DNA of 48,978 nt from Candidatus Poribacteria bacterium (GCA_009843785.1 VYCT01000307.1:1-48978); one strand, 5' to 3'; shown: positions 39,637 to 48,646, counted from the first letter of the stretch. A program made the numbers and translations. The notes: generated from the letters alone by a model not told the origin.

Positions 39637-40473
39637 TTAGCTCCAACACGCGTCCGTGTATGCCTCACGATCAAAGAGTTTCCGACGGAACGGTGTCGCC
39701 GTTGCCATCCATTCTTCAGGAATCTCCTGCGTGTAACGGTGCGGCGGTCCCGCTTCCTTAAAGATGTCGATGTTGAAAATACGATAGAGCTGCGGCGAAT
39801 CCACAGGCTTTGCCTCAACGGCGTGAAAGATACGTGCATCTATGTAGACCATACTCCCCGGCGGTAATTCCAACCGTTTCTCTTCCAATTGACGTCCGGC
39901 TTCTTTGTCATAGTCACCTGCAAGCATCCGTTCTGGCGTTGCCTCCCGCGTCGGTGCGACCTTATGGCTACCTGGTATAACTTTGAGGTTTCGATCGCCA
40001 CGTGTGAAGCCATTTGGATAGTACAAAATCTGTATATAGTAGTTATCGCGTTCAGCGAGATTAATCGGATTCTCATGCTTCCAATGGTGGTGGTCTTGGT
40101 GAAAACCGAGAGGACCGACCCCGCGGGGTGCTATGTTGAGTGCGGAGTGACAAAAGTGGTACGCCTCACCAATGGTCGCGCATATGAGTGCCGTGATGAA
40201 AGGGTCGTCGATGAGCCGATCACTGTATTCACGGCGATCGTTCCACGGACGTATAAAATACGGGCGCTCTGGTTTTTCGCCATTATTCAACGTCTCAATG
40301 TACTGACGTGTCGGTTCAAAATGCTGTGTAATCTCTTCAATCAGACCTTCTCTGCCACCGTCCGTTAGCACGTCCGGATAAGCGATGTAGCCATCGTTGT
40401 GGAAAGAATCGATATCCGCTTGCGATGGACCAAGCAATCGGAAAAGTGAATCAATTGTAGTAGTGGCTTCCAT
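39637..40473 (-). CDS. Phytanoyl-CoA dioxygenase (PhyH) family protein
   Basis: The 278-residue oxygenase has His125-x-Asp127 (GFHQDHHHWK), IPGSH, distal His217 (RIFHAVEAKP) and Arg231 for 2-oxoglutarate. The histidine-rich stretch after the motif is unusual. The start is ATG 40473 with GGAG upstream. It is 31 bases before the sulfatase gene on the same strand. The coupling suggests that the oxygenase acts on the same organic sulfate or its product, but this is inferred from position only. Confidence 0.85.
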   Translation of the reverse strand: MEATTTIDSLFRLLGPSQADIDSFHNDGYIAYPDVLTDGGREGLIEEITQHFEPTRQYIETLNNGEKPERPYFIRPWNDRREYSDRLIDDPFITALICATIGEAYHFCHSALNIAPRGVGPLGFHQDHHHWKHENPINLAERDNYYIQILYYPNGFTRGDRNLKVIPGSHKVAPTREATPERMLAGDYDKEAGRQLEEKRLELPPGSMVYIDARIFHAVEAKPVDSPQLYRIFNIDIFKEAGPPHRYTQEIPEEWMATATPFRRKLFDREAYTDACWS

Positions 40474-40500: not shown

Positions 40501-40529
40501 TTGACTTTTGGTTCATTTGAGAGTATAAT
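40501..40529 (+). promoter_or_regulatory. Promoter of the DUF433 gene
   Basis: TTGACT (40501-40506) and TATAAT (40524-40529) have a 17-base spacer, near-perfect consensus. Transcription would start near 40536, 83 bases before the GTG start codon. Confidence 0.75.
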
Positions 40530-40618
40530 TGCTGCTGACGCTCGCGTATTGTATGATAAACTTTAGTATTGCTCGCGTGCTTTCCATGTTTGAGTATACC
40601 ACTGACAGGAGAAAAAAG

Positions 40619-40864
40619 GTGCAAAATCTAAACCGTATAACTTTTGACCCCGAAGTGATGGGAGGCAAGGCATGTATTCGCGGCATGCGAGTCACCGTCA
40701 GCACAGTTGTTGGTTTGGTCGCTTCTGGCTATTCCAATACTGATATTCTGAAGGCATATCCCTATTTAGAAGAAGAGGATATTCGCCAAGCTCTTACCTA
40801 TGCCGCATGGCGGGTTCAAGAAATTGAAGTGCCACCTCACATCCGGCTGTGTCCCTCCTGCTGA
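40619..40864 (+). CDS. DUF433-domain (antitoxin-like) protein, no partner
   Basis: The 81-residue protein matches DUF433: RITFDPEVMGGKACIRGMRVTV, seen as ITFDPEVMGGKACIRG, and a helical end with PYLEEEDIRQALTYAAWR. DUF433 proteins are often antitoxins to a DUF5615 PIN-like toxin encoded just downstream. Here the downstream gene is a sulfatase on the opposite strand, overlapping by 28 bases, and no toxin is seen. I start at GTG 40619, correctly spaced after AGGAG (40607-40611); upstream in-frame ATG codons have no ribosome-binding site. It may be a solitary DNA-binding regulator. Confidence 0.82.
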   Translation: MQNLNRITFDPEVMGGKACIRGMRVTVSTVVGLVASGYSNTDILKAYPYLEEEDIRQALTYAAWRVQEIEVPPHIRLCPSC

Positions 40865-42309
40865 AATCTCTCCAGCAACGCTGTCAAGCGTTCCACAATC
40901 TCTGGATACGTTTCCCATACGTTATTCGTTTCACTCGGATCGTCGTAGATATGATACAGTTGCCCCGGCGTCCCCGGTTTCGGACCGCCATCACGAGGTG
41001 GGGGCCAGCCACCTGAACCTTGTGTTCCCAAGATCAATTTCCAATCACCGTGCCGGATAGAGAAAACGCCTGTGCTGGAATGATGCACAATGGCTTCCCG
41101 CAATGATCTTTCGATCTCTTCACCCAGTAACGCAGGCAGAATGTTGCAACTGTCCTGTCCTGCGTCGTCTGGCACTTCCGTCCCGACAATCGCTGCGCAG
41201 GTCGCCATCAGATCGGTAAGACAGGTTAACGTATCAGTTTCGGTATTCGGTGCGATGACACCGGGCCATCGTGCTATCAGCGGTTCACGGTGCCCGCCTT
41301 CCCAAATATGTGCCTTGTAACCACGCCAGTCACCGCACGATTTATGATCGTAGAGATGATACGGCATTGGGCTGTTATCTCCTTGAATCCTGTCACCGGG
41401 CAAGGCACCGTTATCACTCGTGACAAAGATGAGCGTCTCGTCGGTTTTGCCGGTGCGTTCTAACGCGTCCATAACTTCACCAACCATCCAATCCACAAGC
41501 CATACCAGATCACCACGGGGACCAGCACGACTCTGCCCGCGTGCGAAGTCTGGCACGACTGCCTCTGTGCAAGGTTCGTGCGGTGCAGAGGGGGTCAGAT
41601 AAAGGAAGAAAGGGGCATCCGCATCAGTTTGCCCTTCAATATACGCAACCGCCTTCTCTGCTATAATCGGATCCGCATCCTTATGTTCCCACCCTGCGGT
41701 CATCATACCGGGACGGCTTGTAAACTCTGGCACTTCGTGATAGACATTCGGGATTTCCACAAAAGTGTCGTTCTCAATAAAACCGTAAGGCGGCTGGCAG
41801 GTCGGGCAGCCGGAATTCCCGTAAAAATAGTCAAACCCGATATCCACGGGACCGCCGGTGAGTGGCGCGGTGAAATCAATATGCTCTTCGAGTTCCCGTC
41901 CGGCATTGCCCCACGGCAGCGGGGCATTGAAATCGAAATCGTATCCCGGCACCGTCGAAAATCCGAGTCCGAGATGCCACTTGCCGATACAGGCGGTGTT
42001 GTAACCCGCATCTTTCAGTAATCCAGCGACTGTCAAGCGTTCAGGTTCAATCAGCGGGGGTTCGTAGCCGTAAAGCACACCGTGTTTGAGACGGCTACGC
42101 CAGCAATATCGACCTGTTAAAACGCCGTAGCGTGTCGGTGTACAGACGGCGGAGGGTGAATGTGCGTCCGTAAAACGGATGCCCTCCTGCGCGAGTTTAT
42201 CCATATTCGGGGTCGGAATTTTTGAATCTACGTTGTAGCAGCCGACATCACCGTATCCCATATCGTCTGCCATGATAAAGACAATGTTTGGAGAGGTCTG
42301 TGTGTCCAT
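40837..42309 (-). CDS. Sulfatase with CTPTR modification motif
   Basis: The 490-residue protein has IVFIMADDMGYGDVGCYN with the metal Asp-Asp, a variant modification motif Cys56-T-P-T-R60 (most family members have Ser at position four), GKWHLG, and FVTSDNGALPGD. C-x-P-x-R is still a recognised formylglycine-generating site, so activity is likely. No signal peptide. AGGAG eight bases upstream supports ATG 42309, not the longer reading to 42345. It is 41 bases after the first RDD-PspA gene on the same strand and may share its transcript. Its C-terminal end overlaps the DUF433 gene. Confidence 0.85.
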   Translation of the reverse strand: MDTQTSPNIVFIMADDMGYGDVGCYNVDSKIPTPNMDKLAQEGIRFTDAHSPSAVCTPTRYGVLTGRYCWRSRLKHGVLYGYEPPLIEPERLTVAGLLKDAGYNTACIGKWHLGLGFSTVPGYDFDFNAPLPWGNAGRELEEHIDFTAPLTGGPVDIGFDYFYGNSGCPTCQPPYGFIENDTFVEIPNVYHEVPEFTSRPGMMTAGWEHKDADPIIAEKAVAYIEGQTDADAPFFLYLTPSAPHEPCTEAVVPDFARGQSRAGPRGDLVWLVDWMVGEVMDALERTGKTDETLIFVTSDNGALPGDRIQGDNSPMPYHLYDHKSCGDWRGYKAHIWEGGHREPLIARWPGVIAPNTETDTLTCLTDLMATCAAIVGTEVPDDAGQDSCNILPALLGEEIERSLREAIVHHSSTGVFSIRHGDWKLILGTQGSGGWPPPRDGGPKPGTPGQLYHIYDDPSETNNVWETYPEIVERLTALLERFQQEGHSRM

Positions 42310-42350
42310 TCTAACAACTCCTGAGTGGGTATGGCGATAAGACATCGCGC

Positions 42351-43469
42351 CTATTGTAATTTCGCCTTTAATTCGGCGAGGTCTTTGTCAATGGATGCGT
42401 CTTCTGCGTAGTTTGAGAATTCACGATGCAATTTCACATCTTTGAACTCGACATCCACCTCAGAAGCCGCGCGTGCTAAGGCAGCGGCTTCAGTTACATT
42501 CTGTTCCACTTGCCTCAGAATCTCAAAAGCCTTGCTATCTTGGAGCTCTGTCAATGCTTGGTGGAGGTGTTCGTGAGCATCAACATTTGTGTGCTGTGCG
42601 ATGACCTGATCCCTTTTTCTTTCTGTCTCCTCGGTTTTTTGCTGCAGCGTTTCAAAAAGCGTTGTGAGATGCGCTACAACCCGTTTCTGTTCATTCCATT
42701 GCGCTTTATAACTGCTGGCGAGTCGTCGGTATTCATTCCGTTGTGCCAAATCTTCCCGCGCGAGATCCTCGCGGCCGGCTTGAAGAGCAATGGCGGCTCG
42801 CTCCTCACACCGTTCTGCCTGTGTAATCGCGCCCTCGTGGGCGTTTTGAAACTGTTTTTCAATGCCAATGGAGGCATCAACCTTCTGTTTCGCTTCCGAA
42901 AACCGATCCGTGATTTCATGGATGACATCGCCTAAGACCTTTTCCAGATCGGTTGTTGCGGCTCTATTTTTAACCGCAGACTCGGTTTCATCTTCAGTTA
43001 CAAATTCAACCTGTTTTGTGTCTAATTTAACAACAACGGTCTTGGCAAGTTTATCGCCCATCCGCTGTTTCTCTTTTCCGGTGGCAAACAGCCAGTCAAC
43101 GGGTTGGAATATGCCCGCAAACCGACGAACGAAGGCATCTTTAAAGTTCGCAGGTTCTCCATCCTCCAAACGGATTGTCTGTAGAGATAAAAGTCTCTTT
43201 CCAAACCCACCCCCTTTTTTCACACCATCCATGAAAAACAGACCGAACCCCCACAGAATAAAACTTAGAGTCCCGATACTAACCGATGTCATGTTTGATG
43301 CGTCATGAAAACTTCTAAAACTATCAAAAATCTCAAATAGCACAAGACCGCTAAGAATCAAAACGGCTTGGCAGAGCCCCAAGAATCCTATGTCTAATAA
43401 AAACGCGCCCAGTCGCGTCCATCGGGATGCCAACTTGAACTTTTTCCCTGCAACCTTAATAATAGACAT
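42351..43469 (-). CDS. RDD-PspA/IM30 fusion protein, copy 1
   Basis: Residues 1-150 form an RDD membrane domain: an entry motif VAGKKFKLASR, Arg20 and Asp26 at the first helix, more helices to about 82, then GKRLLSLQTIRLEDG and MGDKLAKTVVV with the last Asp. Residues about 173-372 match PspA/IM30: LEKVLGDVIHEITDR, an ERAAIALQAGREDLARED helix, a long coiled coil and a final LAELKAKLQ. PspA is a membrane-repair/ESCRT-III-type protein that normally binds membranes through an N-terminal amphipathic helix; here the RDD anchor stands there. AAGGAGG supports ATG 43469. It is most diverged from copies 2 and 3. Confidence 0.82.
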   Translation of the reverse strand: MSIIKVAGKKFKLASRWTRLGAFLLDIGFLGLCQAVLILSGLVLFEIFDSFRSFHDASNMTSVSIGTLSFILWGFGLFFMDGVKKGGGFGKRLLSLQTIRLEDGEPANFKDAFVRRFAGIFQPVDWLFATGKEKQRMGDKLAKTVVVKLDTKQVEFVTEDETESAVKNRAATTDLEKVLGDVIHEITDRFSEAKQKVDASIGIEKQFQNAHEGAITQAERCEERAAIALQAGREDLAREDLAQRNEYRRLASSYKAQWNEQKRVVAHLTTLFETLQQKTEETERKRDQVIAQHTNVDAHEHLHQALTELQDSKAFEILRQVEQNVTEAAALARAASEVDVEFKDVKLHREFSNYAEDASIDKDLAELKAKLQ

Positions 43470-43530
43470 CGTTGAAAACACCTCCTTCTATATGAGAATT
43501 TGCGCTTGGTAAAAAAGATGTTAATAAGTA

Positions 43531-43866
43531 CTACGGATCGGTTTCAGAAGGCGGGTGAGCATGATCAGATTCTTCATCCGTGTCTGTTGGGGGTTGTGAT
43601 GGCAATTGTGGCGGGAAAATAAGCGTATCGGTTGTGGACAATTGTTGATGTGTTTTCAATACCGCTTTCAATTCCGCGTAGAATTGCTCGCACTCTTCTT
43701 TCGTGCCAATCAACTCTATGCTGGGCGAGTTTGACAGATTAATATGTAGCTCATACTGACGATGTCGTCCTCTGATTATCTTGATCTGATGGACATACTC
43801 AATATTCACCATCCCTCGGTAAGAGTTCTTATACCTTTCATCCGGATTGATGATCTCAATAAACAT
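43531..43866 (-). CDS. Small protein within the RDD-PspA array, function unknown
   Basis: The 111-residue protein has a beta-rich first part (about 1-70), including NIEYVHQIKIIRG and an IELIGTKEECEQFYAELKAVL helix. A low-complexity tail rich in Pro, Asp, Glu, Ser and His follows (from about 85). No signal peptide or membrane helix. The fold could be PH-like, judging from the strand-helix order only. AAAGGAG supports ATG 43866. It lies 28 bases after copy 2 and 61 bases before copy 1 on the same strand, so it is likely co-expressed with the array. Confidence 0.6.
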   Translation of the reverse strand: MFIEIINPDERYKNSYRGMVNIEYVHQIKIIRGRHRQYELHINLSNSPSIELIGTKEECEQFYAELKAVLKTHQQLSTTDTLIFPPQLPSQPPTDTDEESDHAHPPSETDP

Positions 43867-43894
43867 TATGAAGCTCCTTTCGGCTTTTTTCTTT

Positions 43895-44992
43895 CTACTG
43901 AACTTTTGCTTTTAATTCGGCAAGGTCCTTGTCAAGCGATGCTTCCTCAGCGTAACCCGCGAATTCACGCGCTAATTTCGTGTCTTGGTATTCAACATCT
44001 ACCTCAGCTGCAGCTTTCGCCAAAGTGGCTGCCTCCGTCGCGTCCTGCTCCATCTTTGCAAGTGTCTCAAATGCCTTGCTGTCTTGTATCTCTTTCAGCA
44101 TCTCACGGAGATGAGTTTCGGCATCAACGTTTCTGTGTTTCGCGACGATAGTTGTTTTTTGCCCTTGTGCCTCTGTCATCTTCTGCTGGAGATGCTCCAA
44201 GAGATCGCTCAGTGATCGGACGGTCTGTTTCTGTTCTTCCCACTGTGTTTTATAGTCGGCTGCCAGTCGCCGGTATTCATTCCGTTTTTCCAAATCTTCG
44301 CGTGCCAAATCCTCACGTCCGGCTTTCAAAGAAATAACGGCGCGATCTTGCCACCGATCCGCTTGCAGAACCGCGCCTTCGTAAGCATCTTGAAACTGTT
44401 TTTCAACCCCGATAGAGGCATCAACCTTCTCCCGCGCCTCCGCAAGACGGTTTTTCATTTCAGCGATGGCATTCTCTAAAACCTGCTCTGGATCTTCGGT
44501 TTCAGCTTCAGTCTGTTCCGGTTCCGGTTCAAATTCCACAACAACCGTCTCCGCGAACTTATCTCCGAGGCGTTGCTGTTTTTTACCAAGGAACCAGAGT
44601 AAATCAAAGGGTTGGAGGAGACCCGCGAAACGACGAAGAAAAGCATCTTTGAACGTACACGGTTTGCCATCTTTCAGACGAAGCACTTGTAGTGACAACA
44701 ACTTCTTTCCTATGCCCTGCCCCTTTCTGAAGCCATCGATAAAAAACAGACCAAATATCCACAAAACGACACTGAACAGAAAGGCAAAGATGCTGAGTCC
44801 ACCGATGCTTAGCAACGACTGAGGTGATCCGAAGGATCCTATACCGAATAACAGAAGAGCTACAATTGATAAAAGCAGCCCTAAAACTGATTGCGCGGCA
44901 CCGATAAGCGCGATGTCTATGAAGAGGGCATATAACCGTGTCAGTCGAGATGCTAATTTGAATTTTTTCCCCGCAATCTTAATGGACTTCAT
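43895..44992 (-). CDS. RDD-PspA/IM30 fusion protein, copy 2
   Basis: The 365-residue protein has the same two-domain order as copy 1: MKSIKIAGKKFKLASR, an RDD membrane part with Arg20, Asp26 and GLFFIDGF after Trp78, GKKLLSLQVLRLKDG, then a PspA/IM30 part from about 165 (LENAIAEMKNRLAEAR, AGREDLAREDL) to LAELKAKVQ. It is closest to copy 3. AGGA seven bases upstream places the start at ATG 44992, not TTG 44998. The gap to copy 3 is 51 bases. Confidence 0.82.
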   Translation of the reverse strand: MKSIKIAGKKFKLASRLTRLYALFIDIALIGAAQSVLGLLLSIVALLLFGIGSFGSPQSLLSIGGLSIFAFLFSVVLWIFGLFFIDGFRKGQGIGKKLLSLQVLRLKDGKPCTFKDAFLRRFAGLLQPFDLLWFLGKKQQRLGDKFAETVVVEFEPEPEQTEAETEDPEQVLENAIAEMKNRLAEAREKVDASIGVEKQFQDAYEGAVLQADRWQDRAVISLKAGREDLAREDLEKRNEYRRLAADYKTQWEEQKQTVRSLSDLLEHLQQKMTEAQGQKTTIVAKHRNVDAETHLREMLKEIQDSKAFETLAKMEQDATEAATLAKAAAEVDVEYQDTKLAREFAGYAEEASLDKDLAELKAKVQ

Positions 44993-45043
44993 TTTCAAAT
45001 CCTATAAATCTTTCGTATTATACGACGCACGTTGGATGAATGT

Positions 45044-46138
45044 TTATTGCTGTAGCTTCGCTTTCAATTCAGTGAGATCTTTGTCAATTAATGCTTCTTC
45101 AGCATAACTCGCGAACTCACGCTCTGATTTCATATTCTGATAGGGAATATCTAATTCAGCTGCAGCTTTTGCTAAAGTAGCCGCCTCAGTGGCATCCTGC
45201 TCCATCTTTAAAAGTGTATCAAATGATTCGTTGGCTTGTATCTCTTTTAGCATTTCGCGAAGATGTGCTTCGGCATCAACATTTCTGTGTTTCGCCGCAA
45301 CAGTGGCTTTTTTCCCTTCCGCCTCCATAGTTTTTTGCTGGAAGTGCTCAAGAAGGTTGCTGAGTTCTCGGACGGTCTGTTTCTGTTCTTCCCATTGTGT
45401 TTTATGTTTATCTGCTAATCGTCGATATTCATTTCGTTTTTCGAGGTCTTCACGTGCCAAATCCTCACGCCCTGCTTTAAGAGCAATGAGTGCGCGTTCT
45501 TCCCACTGTTCCATTTGGGCGACAGCACCTTCATAAGCATCCTGAAACTGTTTTTCAACGCCGATGGAGGCATCAACCTTCTCTCGCGCTTCTGAAAGCC
45601 GGTTTTTCATCTCAACGATAGTGTTTTCTAAAACTTGCTCAAGGCTTTCGGTTTCAACTTCAACCTGCTCCGGTTCAGGTTCATATTTTACAACAACTGT
45701 CTCTGCGAATTTATCTCCTAACCGTTGTTGTTTTTCACCAAGCGTCAATAAAAAGTCCATTGGCTGAAAGATGCCAGCGAACCGGCGGACGAAAGCATCT
45801 TTGAACGTACACGGCTTACCGTCTTTCAAACGAAGCACTTGTAAGGATAGCAATTTTTTGCCAAAGCCTTGTCCCTTTCTGAATCCATCTATGAAAAAGA
45901 GACCGAACACTCATAGAGCTATGCTGCTAAAAACAAAAATGCCTAATATGAAACTTTGCCAACCAGTTTCTGGATGATTCCACATTGACGGAGAAATAAT
46001 GTGTCCTATCAACCGCATTAAGAAGAGCGCAATTATTTGCACGACGGTTAGCGAGGTTAAATCTATGAAGAGCGCATATAAGCGCGCCAGTCGTGATCCC
46101 AATTTGATTTTCTTGCCCGCAATCTTAATAGACTTCAT
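45044..46138 (-). pseudogene. RDD-PspA/IM30 fusion, copy 3, interrupted by in-frame TGA
   Basis: Read through one TGA (45911-45913, reverse strand) this gene would give 364 residues, almost the same as copy 2 (365). The stop is codon 76, at SIAL-stop-VFGLFF, where copy 2 has VVLWIFGLFF and copy 1 ILWGFGLFF: tryptophan TGG has become TGA by one base change. Both halves otherwise keep full RDD and PspA sequence without frameshift. A GTG directly follows the TGA, so re-initiation could make a 289-residue C-terminal part. Recent pseudogene, readthrough or sequencing error are all possible. TGA ends other genes here, so general recoding is unlikely. Confidence 0.75.
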
Positions 46139-46273
46139 TGATGACTTCATCCTTTGTTCTATGTGGTCTTAATTGTGTCTCAACAAGTTGGAGAAGAGAG
46201 TGTTGATTTTGGAGACATGTTCAGAATCTTATAACTTTTCTATATTTCTGTTGCCTGTGTCCGGACAAGGTTC

Positions 46274-47458
46274 TTACTTCTGGAATTCTGCCTTCAACTC
46301 AGCAAGGTCTTTATCAAGCGATGCTTCTTCAGCATAGCTCGCAAAATCGCGTTCTAATTTCGTATCCTGATATGCGACATCTACTTCAGCTGCAGCTTTC
46401 GCTAAAGTAGCCGCCTCCGTCGCGTCCCGCTCCATCTTTGCCAGTGTTTCAAACGTCTTACTATCTTGCATTTCTTTCAGCATCTCACGGATATGGCTTT
46501 CGGCATCAATGTTTCTGTGTTGGGCAACGACAACTGCCTTTTTCCCTTCAGCTTCTGTCATTTTCTGTTGAAGATGTTCAAGAAGGTTACTAAGGGATTG
46601 GACAATCTGTTCCTGTTCTTCCTCTTGCTTTTTGTACTGGTCTGCCAATCGCTGGTATTCGTTACGTTTTCCGAGGTCTTCCCTTGCCAAATCTTCTCGT
46701 CCTGCTCTGAGGTTAATAATAGCACGCTCTTGCCATTTTTCCGATTGGGCGACAGCACCTTCATAAGCATTCTTAAACAGTTTTTCGACACCTACAGAGG
46801 CATCAACTTTCTGGCGGGCATCTGAAAGCCGGTTTGTCATCTCAACGATGGCATTCTCTAAAATTTTTTCAGGATCTTCGGTTTCGGTTTCCAACGCTTC
46901 TGGCACTGGATCAAGCTTTACCACAACCGTCTCTGCTAACTTATCTCCCATCCGCTGCCGTTGTTTTCCAAACGTCCAGAAGGAATCCAGGGGTTGAAAA
47001 ATACTCGTCAGACGGCGAACAAAAGAATCTTTAAAGGAACACGGTTTACCATTTTTCAATCGAAGGACTTGTAGGGACATTAATTTTTTGCCGGGGCCCT
47101 GTCCATCGCCGAAGCCATCTATGAAAAACAGAATAGCTGCCCCTATTGCTGCACCGCCCCAGAGTAGAGTGTCTAAACTATAGTTCAGCCACGGTCCGAA
47201 AAGACCAATTATAGACATTTGCACGAGAGGGTATACATCTTCATCTACTTTAGTTTTAGGACCTAATGTCCACAGCAATGCACTGAGCAATCCAATCCGA
47301 ATAAGACTCGGACCAATACCGGAACCCATGGCATCAAACAGAAAAACCAAAATGGATAGCACACCTGCTACGAGCATTCCATCTATCAGAAACGCAAATA
47401 ATCGCGCCAATCGTGATCCTAATTTGAGTTTTTTACCCGCAACCTCAATAAACTTCAT
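46274..47458 (-). CDS. RDD-PspA/IM30 fusion protein, copy 4
   Basis: The 394-residue protein is the longest copy and first in transcription order. MKFIEVAGKKLKLGSR, Arg20 and Asp26 open the RDD part. An extra stretch of about 25 residues, with KTKVDEDVYPLVQM, lies between its helices, and the following helix reads AAILFFIDGF instead of the Trp-containing form. GKKLMSLQVLRLKNG follows, then PspA/IM30 from about 195 (LENAIVEMTNRLSDAR, AGREDLAREDL) to LAELKAEFQK. Topology prediction is less clear here. ATG 47458 has GAGG at a spacing of ten. An AT-rich palindrome lies just upstream. Confidence 0.82.
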   Translation of the reverse strand: MKFIEVAGKKLKLGSRLARLFAFLIDGMLVAGVLSILVFLFDAMGSGIGPSLIRIGLLSALLWTLGPKTKVDEDVYPLVQMSIIGLFGPWLNYSLDTLLWGGAAIGAAILFFIDGFGDGQGPGKKLMSLQVLRLKNGKPCSFKDSFVRRLTSIFQPLDSFWTFGKQRQRMGDKLAETVVVKLDPVPEALETETEDPEKILENAIVEMTNRLSDARQKVDASVGVEKLFKNAYEGAVAQSEKWQERAIINLRAGREDLAREDLGKRNEYQRLADQYKKQEEEQEQIVQSLSNLLEHLQQKMTEAEGKKAVVVAQHRNIDAESHIREMLKEMQDSKTFETLAKMERDATEAATLAKAAAEVDVAYQDTKLERDFASYAEEASLDKDLAELKAEFQK

Positions 47459-47587: not shown

Positions 47588-48646
47588 TTACAGTGTCGGC
47601 ACTGTCACAGCGACTTCGCGCCCCCCTGCATTTGAAGAATCGATAACGCCTTGGATAATAACGTTCGTAAGCATAACGCCATACGGATCAATCGGTGAAG
47701 GTTTCCCCTCGCGGACAGCATCAATAAACGCCGAATCTTCTTCGTGGAATACACTTACAGATTCAAACTTGGTGAACGCTTGATCAAAAATCTCACCGTC
47801 TTTATCGCCATAGACGCGGACACCTTCCTCTGGCCCACGGACCTCGCCAATACCGAGACGTAATCCCGCTTTTTTGCCGAGGAAGATCGTACCACCGAGC
47901 GAATCCATGTTCATGCACCAGCACGTCTTGAAGACCATACGCGCACCGTTTTCAAAGACCACCCAACCGACACCAAAATCTTCTACTTCAGTCTCTTTAA
48001 GTGCGGGGTTCCAGGTATTGTGCAGACTCAGGTAGTTGGAAGTGATACCAGAGACCGCAACCGGCTTCGGGTGTCCCATCAGATAGAGCGCAGTATCAAG
48101 CGCGTAGACACCGATGTCCGCAGACGCACCTAAACCCGCTGTCGCCTTTCGGATAAAACTGCCGCCGGGGTTCCCGCGCCGCCGATCCGCCACGGTCTCA
48201 ACGTAGTAGATATCGCCGAGTGTGCCAGCGTCAACGATCTCTTTTGCCTTAATTACCTGTGGCGAGTACCGGAGTTTCAAGCCGACCATCAATATTTTAT
48301 CGTTTTCTTTTGCGGCGCGCCACATCGCAGCCGCAGCGTCCAACGTCGCTTCCATCGGCTTCTCACAGAAAACATGTTTGCCTGCGTTCAGCGCAGCGAC
48401 TGTCGGTGCGGCATGCACACCTGTAGGCGTACACACGTACACCGCCTCAATTTCGTCCATTTTGAGCATTTCATTGTAATCGGTGAACGTGCGTTTAATG
48501 TCCCATCGTTCTTTCGCGCGCTCCAGGTTTGCAGGGACAAGGTCGGCGGCGGCAATAATTTCAGCACCTTTAATATCAGCAAGTGTGCCGCAGTGTGCCT
48601 GTGCAATACCACCCGCTCCAATCAAACCTAACTTAACTGTTCTCAT
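47588..48646 (-). CDS. Gfo/Idh/MocA-family oxidoreductase
   Basis: These NAD(P)-dependent enzymes act mainly on sugars, inositols and related polyols. The 352-residue protein shows the N-terminal Rossmann motif LGLIGAGGIAQAH, the VYVCTPTGVHA strand, the EKPMEAT motif with the conserved lysine, and a C-terminal beta-sheet domain with GLGASADIGVYALDTALYLMG. GAGGAG precedes ATG 48646. The gene is monocistronic as far as seen, 129 bases upstream of the RDD-PspA array. The substrate is not predictable from sequence. Confidence 0.87.
   Translation of the reverse strand: MRTVKLGLIGAGGIAQAHCGTLADIKGAEIIAAADLVPANLERAKERWDIKRTFTDYNEMLKMDEIEAVYVCTPTGVHAAPTVAALNAGKHVFCEKPMEATLDAAAAMWRAAKENDKILMVGLKLRYSPQVIKAKEIVDAGTLGDIYYVETVADRRRGNPGGSFIRKATAGLGASADIGVYALDTALYLMGHPKPVAVSGITSNYLSLHNTWNPALKETEVEDFGVGWVVFENGARMVFKTCWCMNMDSLGGTIFLGKKAGLRLGIGEVRGPEEGVRVYGDKDGEIFDQAFTKFESVSVFHEEDSAFIDAVREGKPSPIDPYGVMLTNVIIQGVIDSSNAGGREVAVTVPTL

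Follow-up and report, generated by a model that had tools for sequence, protein, structure and literature searches.

RDD-PspA fusion proteins encoded in tandem in a family of Poribacteria, with a membrane domain and an acidic linker at the position of helix α0

The PspA_IM30 proteins (PF04012; canonical PspA, Vipp1 or IM30, and LiaH) of the bacterial ESCRT-III (endosomal sorting complex required for transport III) superfamily consist of helices α1-α5, with an EDLARE motif and a LAELKAK end, preceded by the amphipathic helix α0, which is regarded as the part of PspA that binds and curves the membrane. Here we analyse a window of 48,978 nucleotides (GCA_009843785.1 VYCT01000307.1:1-48978) from a 6.17 Mb metagenome-assembled genome (MAG) of Candidatus Poribacteria, in which positions 42351-47458 hold a tandem array of four loci, all on the minus strand, each joining an N-terminal RDD membrane domain to a C-terminal PspA_IM30 domain. 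These fusions, called copies A to D, have α1-α5, EDLARE and LAELKAK in common with the canonical proteins, but carry the RDD domain and an acidic linker instead of α0 and occur as one to four tandem copies.

The RDD family (PF06271) includes an antiporter of Halobacillus and SppI/YteJ of B. subtilis, which we take to be an RDD protein. In SppI, also a membrane protein, the C-terminal domain is functional (PMC7568657). The fusions share the signature residues and membrane helices of this family and differ from it by the C-terminal PspA domain; antiport has been shown for the Halobacillus protein. On the PspA side, a 2022 survey reports that most PspA proteins have single-domain length and describes PspC-PspA fusions in Firmicutes, which likewise unite a membrane-protein domain, although a different one, with PspA in one polypeptide (PMC9239133). 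A 2024 survey found more than 98% of PspA proteins to be single-domain, with NlpC/P60, PspAA and tandem fusions otherwise, and described cyanobacterial PspA/Vipp1 gene dyads and triads, which are adjacent PspA-family paralogues as here but without a membrane-domain fusion (PMC11237479). In the PspA-YdjGHI system of B. subtilis and PspABC of E. coli, PspA works with integral membrane partners that are separate proteins, while here the anchor is covalent. An RDD-PspA fusion is not described in the searched text of either survey, supplementary tables aside; a full-text literature search on PspA together with RDD retrieved neither of them, and one linking Poribacteria with PspA yielded no paper. 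With respect to those surveys, the RDD-PspA protein is a previously undescribed variant of PspA and not a new kind of protein.

Both halves exceed the curated Pfam cut-offs (33.9 bits for PspA_IM30 and 24.1 bits for RDD). The PspA halves of copies D, C, B and A score 69.3, 79.0, 67.7 and 79.6 bits, with matches up to profile position 218, and their RDD halves 48.9, 46.1, 24.5 and 46.4 bits, the RDD domain of copy B being truncated. The NCBIfam PspA equivalog TIGR02977 (cut-off 242.95 bits) is not reached (52.7-68.1 bits), and the PspA half resembles solved Vipp1/PspA in the PDB with an E value of 1.8e-24. The RDD domains of copies A, C and D (46-49 bits) combine a score above the cut-off with the arginine, the two aspartates and the membrane helices of the family. 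The initial annotation of this array had placed the RDD signature at Arg20, Asp26 and a later GDK, which is right within one or two residues depending on the copy (R21, D28 and D146 in copy C, at least 95% conserved among 55 proteins), and the EDLARE-type helix and LAELKAK end that it named are both present in the fusions. Two-domain matches of this kind, recurring in 48 further loci, are far beyond chance. In a sister family (L138:178-1893) a permease of the MacB/FtsX type carries a related RDD domain at its C-terminus and is encoded next to an efflux-type adaptor protein; this type of RDD domain thus looks like a portable membrane module.

All four loci read RDD-then-PspA on the same strand, as had been claimed, but copy B is interrupted by an in-frame TGA (45913-45911) inside its RDD half, where its closest orthologue (L054) has Trp; the array therefore comprises three intact fusions and a broken one instead of four. 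The open reading frame (ORF) downstream of this stop (45044-45910, 288 amino acids) retains half of the RDD domain and the entire PspA domain, and the RDD domain scores 47.4 bits when the stop is read through. The stop may be a genuine nonsense mutation or may stem from the assembly. Recoding of TGA as Trp was rejected, as genes look normal across the whole window under translation table 11 and only copy B contains such a stop. Stops or frame breaks occur in some copies; at L081:7971-9058 a fusion is split over two overlapping frames (RDD, 167 amino acids; PspA, 211 amino acids) by a frameshift or a sequencing error.

The junction of the two domains can be compared with the canonical PspA of sister families, to which the PspA halves of the fusions are about 40% identical. 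The canonical protein (e.g. MSVFSRISTVFKANVNDALTKAEDPEKVLNQ...) spans PspA_IM30 positions 1-217 including α0 and scores 187.9 bits, whereas in the fusions the match begins at profile position 19-24, with the residues EDPEKVLE, leaving positions 1-18 unmatched. Where α0 would stand, the fusions have linkers of 14-28 residues, which are acidic (net charge -2 to -9) and, where measured, have a low hydrophobic moment of 0.12-0.41, compared with a net charge of 0 to +4 and a moment of 0.49-0.85 for α0 of 12 sister proteins. A search with a canonical protein found no canonical α0-bearing PspA orthologue in the window's family: every strong match was to a fusion ORF and began at query residue 10-22, past or late in α0, and among the matches listed α0 was borne by a divergent paralogue only (about 54-75 bits), whose gene in the window's genome adjoins an ABC transporter gene. 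Because the strong matches in the family lie only in such fusion ORFs, the RDD domain has replaced α0 and was not added to it. The domains, their junction, the loss of α0 and the conservation can thus be read from the sequence, by which α0 is replaced, just before α1, by the RDD domain and a short acidic linker, the fixed polytopic anchor envisaged in the initial annotation.

Two other PspA-like genes were noticed. A divergent α0-bearing PspA paralogue is encoded at L005 (G000:C229), 1477-2909, by a gene overlapping that of an ABC transporter ATPase, and a similar one is present in most family genomes. At L006 (G000:C382), 2-2337, the gene of a divergent PspA-like protein, below the Pfam cut-off, adjoins an AAA+ ATPase gene, a pair reminiscent of an ESCRT-III/Vps4-like pair.

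An AlphaFold2 (AF2) model of copy C as a monomer, built from 55 alignment rows, has a mean pLDDT (predicted local distance difference test score) of 76. In this model two membrane helices (residues 18-51 and 59-89) are followed by a small β/short-helix region that contains the GDK motif, a linker modelled with low confidence (159-167) and helices 170-225, 229-290, 295-306, 308-332 and 341-366, the order expected for PspA α1-α5 (α1, 170-225; α2/3, 229-290; α5, 341-366). The top Foldseek matches are Vipp1 and PspA assemblies (rods), with E values from 2.2e-6, obtained with Vipp1, to 1e-3. Profile score, similarity to solved Vipp1/PspA and predicted fold agree in assigning the C-terminal half to PspA/IM30. 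The initial annotation had named as its own refutation a C-terminal half lacking the PspA profile match, or a predicted structure lacking the PspA hairpin and helices; the profile match is found, and both the hairpin and the following helices are predicted, so that this test fails. Since the predicted number of membrane passes is even, the RDD N-terminus and the PspA half would share one side of the membrane, presumably the cytoplasm.

The initial annotation had proposed that the fusion and its copy number be sought in other genomes. By profile search, matches were obtained in 56 of the 59 genomes belonging to the window's family, almost always over both halves. Among the matches listed, other Poribacteria families, 302 genomes outside the phylum and 284 of one further phylum showed the PspA part or RDD alone. 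Profile searches over 387 relatives and over 286 genomes from two other phyla likewise listed PspA and RDD matches as separate ones only. A peptide-pattern scan over the genomes of 84,980 species yielded 48 fusion loci, all in Poribacteria; its patterns are exact conserved peptides of the PspA half and may miss distant fusions, and specificity to the family is therefore well supported, short of proven. A plasmid match considered as a fusion outside the family was rejected, as it contains PspA alone. A chance or misassembled fusion was likewise rejected, the 48 loci coming from dozens of assemblies that include closed ones. The family probably corresponds to the sponge-dwelling Entoporibacteria, the name given to a sponge-associated poribacterial clade (PMC8546597). 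When copies whose PspA domain is essentially complete are counted, the 42 complete arrays, those flanked by both a Gfo/Idh and a sulfatase gene, divide into 14 single-copy, 18 two-copy, 8 three-copy and 2 four-copy arrays, which places the array of four at the upper extreme of the range.

We consider it probable that the fusion is a permanently membrane-tethered PspA scaffold in which the RDD domain stands in for α0 and for the usual recruiter. The sequences show that canonical PspA, in the ancestor of a single Poribacteria family, lost α0 and gained an N-terminal RDD domain through a short acidic linker. For polymerisation, topology and a role under stress we infer the following course: the RDD domain, with two membrane helices and both termini inside, would hold the PspA hairpin close to the bilayer on its cytoplasmic side, doing the job of α0 (attachment of the polymer) as well as that of recruiters such as PspB/PspC or YdjG/YdjH; and the conserved α1-α5 core would assemble laterally into a membrane-attached scaffold supporting or remodelling the membrane under stress. 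PspA without α0 still forms rods but loses membrane tubulation (PMC12358876), and an α0-free core can therefore polymerise and needs another attachment. In B. subtilis, membrane localisation of PspA requires YdjI and the membrane proteins YdjG/YdjH (PMC8581546). Several points weigh against a tethered scaffold: the AF2 model, of a monomer, has low global confidence (predicted template modelling score, pTM, 0.38); three of the 59 family genomes have no profile match; the neighbours of the array are catabolic enzymes (Gfo/Idh, sulfatase and PhyH) and no psp or lia genes; polymerisation, membrane location and the stress role are predictions from sequence and models, and all the genomes are MAGs; and a fixed polytopic anchor may sterically hinder rod formation. 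Anchored PspA as the cause of poribacterial cell compartments was not adopted, as a published study connects such compartments with genes for microcompartment shells and gas vesicles and describes bodies that are not membrane-bound. A natural swap of α0 for a polytopic anchor, kept family-wide by purifying selection, amounts to a natural experiment on the role of α0, and makes it testable whether attachment alone, in place of helix insertion, suffices for proteins of the bacterial ESCRT-III type and whether a covalent partner can substitute for the separate Psp membrane partners.

The relationships between the copies bear on how such a scaffold could be composed. In a tree of the PspA halves the fusions are monophyletic with respect to canonical PspA (SH-aLRT, Shimodaira-Hasegawa-like approximate likelihood ratio test, 100). 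The copy D type forms a clade (SH-aLRT 98) of last-position copies from two genome groups, and its duplication therefore happened before these groups separated; types A and C/B go back further than the species but are weakly resolved in this tree, and the RDD-half tree gives the same paralogue types more sharply. By these trees the types are old and ordered. Since the copy D type occurs across genera, recent amplification within the genome was rejected for that copy. In each of the 57 within-array paralogue pairs the two PspA halves resemble each other more closely than the two RDD halves do (median 0.70 vs 0.55). Between copy C and L040, identity is 99% in the RDD half and 90% in the PspA half, an inequality that is a sign of recombination between the halves. 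Between orthologues the ratio of nonsynonymous to synonymous substitution rates (dN/dS) is 0.02-0.27 in both halves, indicating purifying selection. A tandem duplication that is neutral or in decay, without special function beyond dosage, would agree with copy numbers of 1-4 and with the stops and frame breaks of some copies, but is very improbable in view of these dN/dS values and of the order and synteny kept across genera, and is already contradicted for A, C and D by the selection pattern.

Hetero-oligomers, as suggested in the initial annotation, are consistent with old, ordered types whose PspA halves are closer than their RDD halves, as would fit co-assembly, but they cannot be obligatory, since one third of the complete arrays (14/42) are single-copy; different types survive alone in different single-copy genomes. 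A strong form of the same model, in which the array is a kit of paralogues each required and non-exchangeable, would explain the ancient ordered types and the diverged RDD halves; those single-copy arrays, the various types that survive in them and the interrupted copy B make it quite unlikely. On the tethered-scaffold reading, types A, B, C and D would share the polymer interface and carry diverged RDD halves, and their mixing, which could tune stoichiometry or signal input, would be optional, a single copy being sufficient in those genomes. We advance only tentatively the further view that the sole canonical PspA of an entire lineage, once a peripheral ESCRT-III-like protein that had to be recruited, has become a polymer integral to the membrane and equipped with receptors of its own, and that mixed filaments, in which diverged RDD halves share one polymer core, read several membrane signals.

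The RDD half might alternatively do the work itself, as an ion/proton antiporter or as a sensor, with the PspA coiled coil as a module for oligomerisation or stress gating and with ion homeostasis, not scaffolding, as the output. The Halobacillus RDD protein performs Na+(Li+,K+)/H+ antiport and needs conserved Asp and Arg residues around transmembrane segment III (PMC5996927), and equivalent-looking residues (D146, R122 and R123) are at least 95% conserved in the fusions. We regard this as unlikely: the prediction gives no more than two clear, long membrane helices, paralogues are better conserved in their PspA half, and the RDD type carried by the sister-family permease points to a portable module.

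The features of the array are collected in Table 1. Transcription would run from Gfo/Idh through copies A, B and C, the 111-residue ORF and copy D to the sulfatase and PhyH genes; the gaps from Gfo/Idh to the sulfatase are about 5-130 bp, and a single transcription unit over this part is therefore plausible. Copy A, the first gene of the array, has a longer loop between its RDD membrane helices, and copy D, the last gene, has the longest linker (about 28 residues) and represents the oldest clearly resolved paralogue type.

Table 1. Positions in the window of the array, its parts and the conserved neighbouring genes
Feature	Coordinates	Strand	Basis
Gfo/Idh/MocA oxidoreductase, conserved upstream neighbour	47588..48646	-	Pfam, synteny
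Copy A, RDD-PspA fusion, 394 aa	46274..47458	-	Pfam; orthologous to first copy elsewhere
Copy B, RDD-PspA fusion broken by in-frame TGA	45044..46150	-	Pfam, comparison with orthologue L054
Copy C, RDD-PspA fusion, 367 aa	43895..44998	-	Pfam, conservation, AF2
RDD domain of copy C, aa 1-155 (predicted membrane helices 18-51, 59-89; R21, D28, D146)	44534..44998	-	AF2, conservation
Acidic linker of copy C, aa 156-169, at position of canonical α0	44492..44533	-	Alignment, AF2, charge/moment
PspA/IM30 helices α1-α5 of copy C, aa 170-367	43898..44491	-	Pfam, PDB similarity, AF2, Foldseek
111-aa ORF between copies C and D	43531..43866	-	Conserved position in >10 other loci
Copy D, RDD-PspA fusion, 376 aa	42351..43481	-	Pfam, PspA-half and RDD-half trees
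Sulfatase, conserved neighbour immediately downstream of array	40837..42345	-	Synteny
PhyH-type dioxygenase, conserved downstream neighbour	39637..40473	-	Synteny

None of the genes of a classical Psp system (PspC, PspB, PspF, LiaF) is found near the array, and PspC, the one of them searched genome-wide, has no match in the window's genome. The order Gfo/Idh, one to four fusions, sulfatase and PhyH is kept on one strand across loci and genera, an arrangement to be expected if the fusion served its catabolic neighbours as a scaffold organising or protecting a membrane-linked use of sulfated host glycans instead of general repair. We give this explanation a low probability, as the distances of the sulfatase and PhyH genes differ among genomes, enzymes of the Gfo/Idh, sulfatase and PhyH types are abundant in these genomes, and the canonical pspA of sister families (L090, L093, L095) is also followed by a Gfo/Idh-type gene, without a sulfatase neighbour. 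Between the sulfatase and PhyH genes, on the opposite strand, lies a gene for a DUF433 protein (40529-40864, +); DUF433 proteins are often toxin-antitoxin components.

The 111-residue ORF inside the array is absent from the initial annotation. It was found in 12 other loci by clustering, 12 by alignment and 13 by tblastn, where it follows copy C or takes that copy's place, and precedes the last copy. It has no match in Pfam, NCBIfam or PHROG and none of significance in the PDB. Its dN/dS is near 0.1 and its near-invariant core is VNIEYVHQIKIIRGRHRQYELHINLSNSPSIEL. The predicted structure is a β-sheet with a C-terminal helix, for which the fold search gave PH/FERM-like matches, non-significant and mixed with chemokines; the fold is perhaps PH-like.

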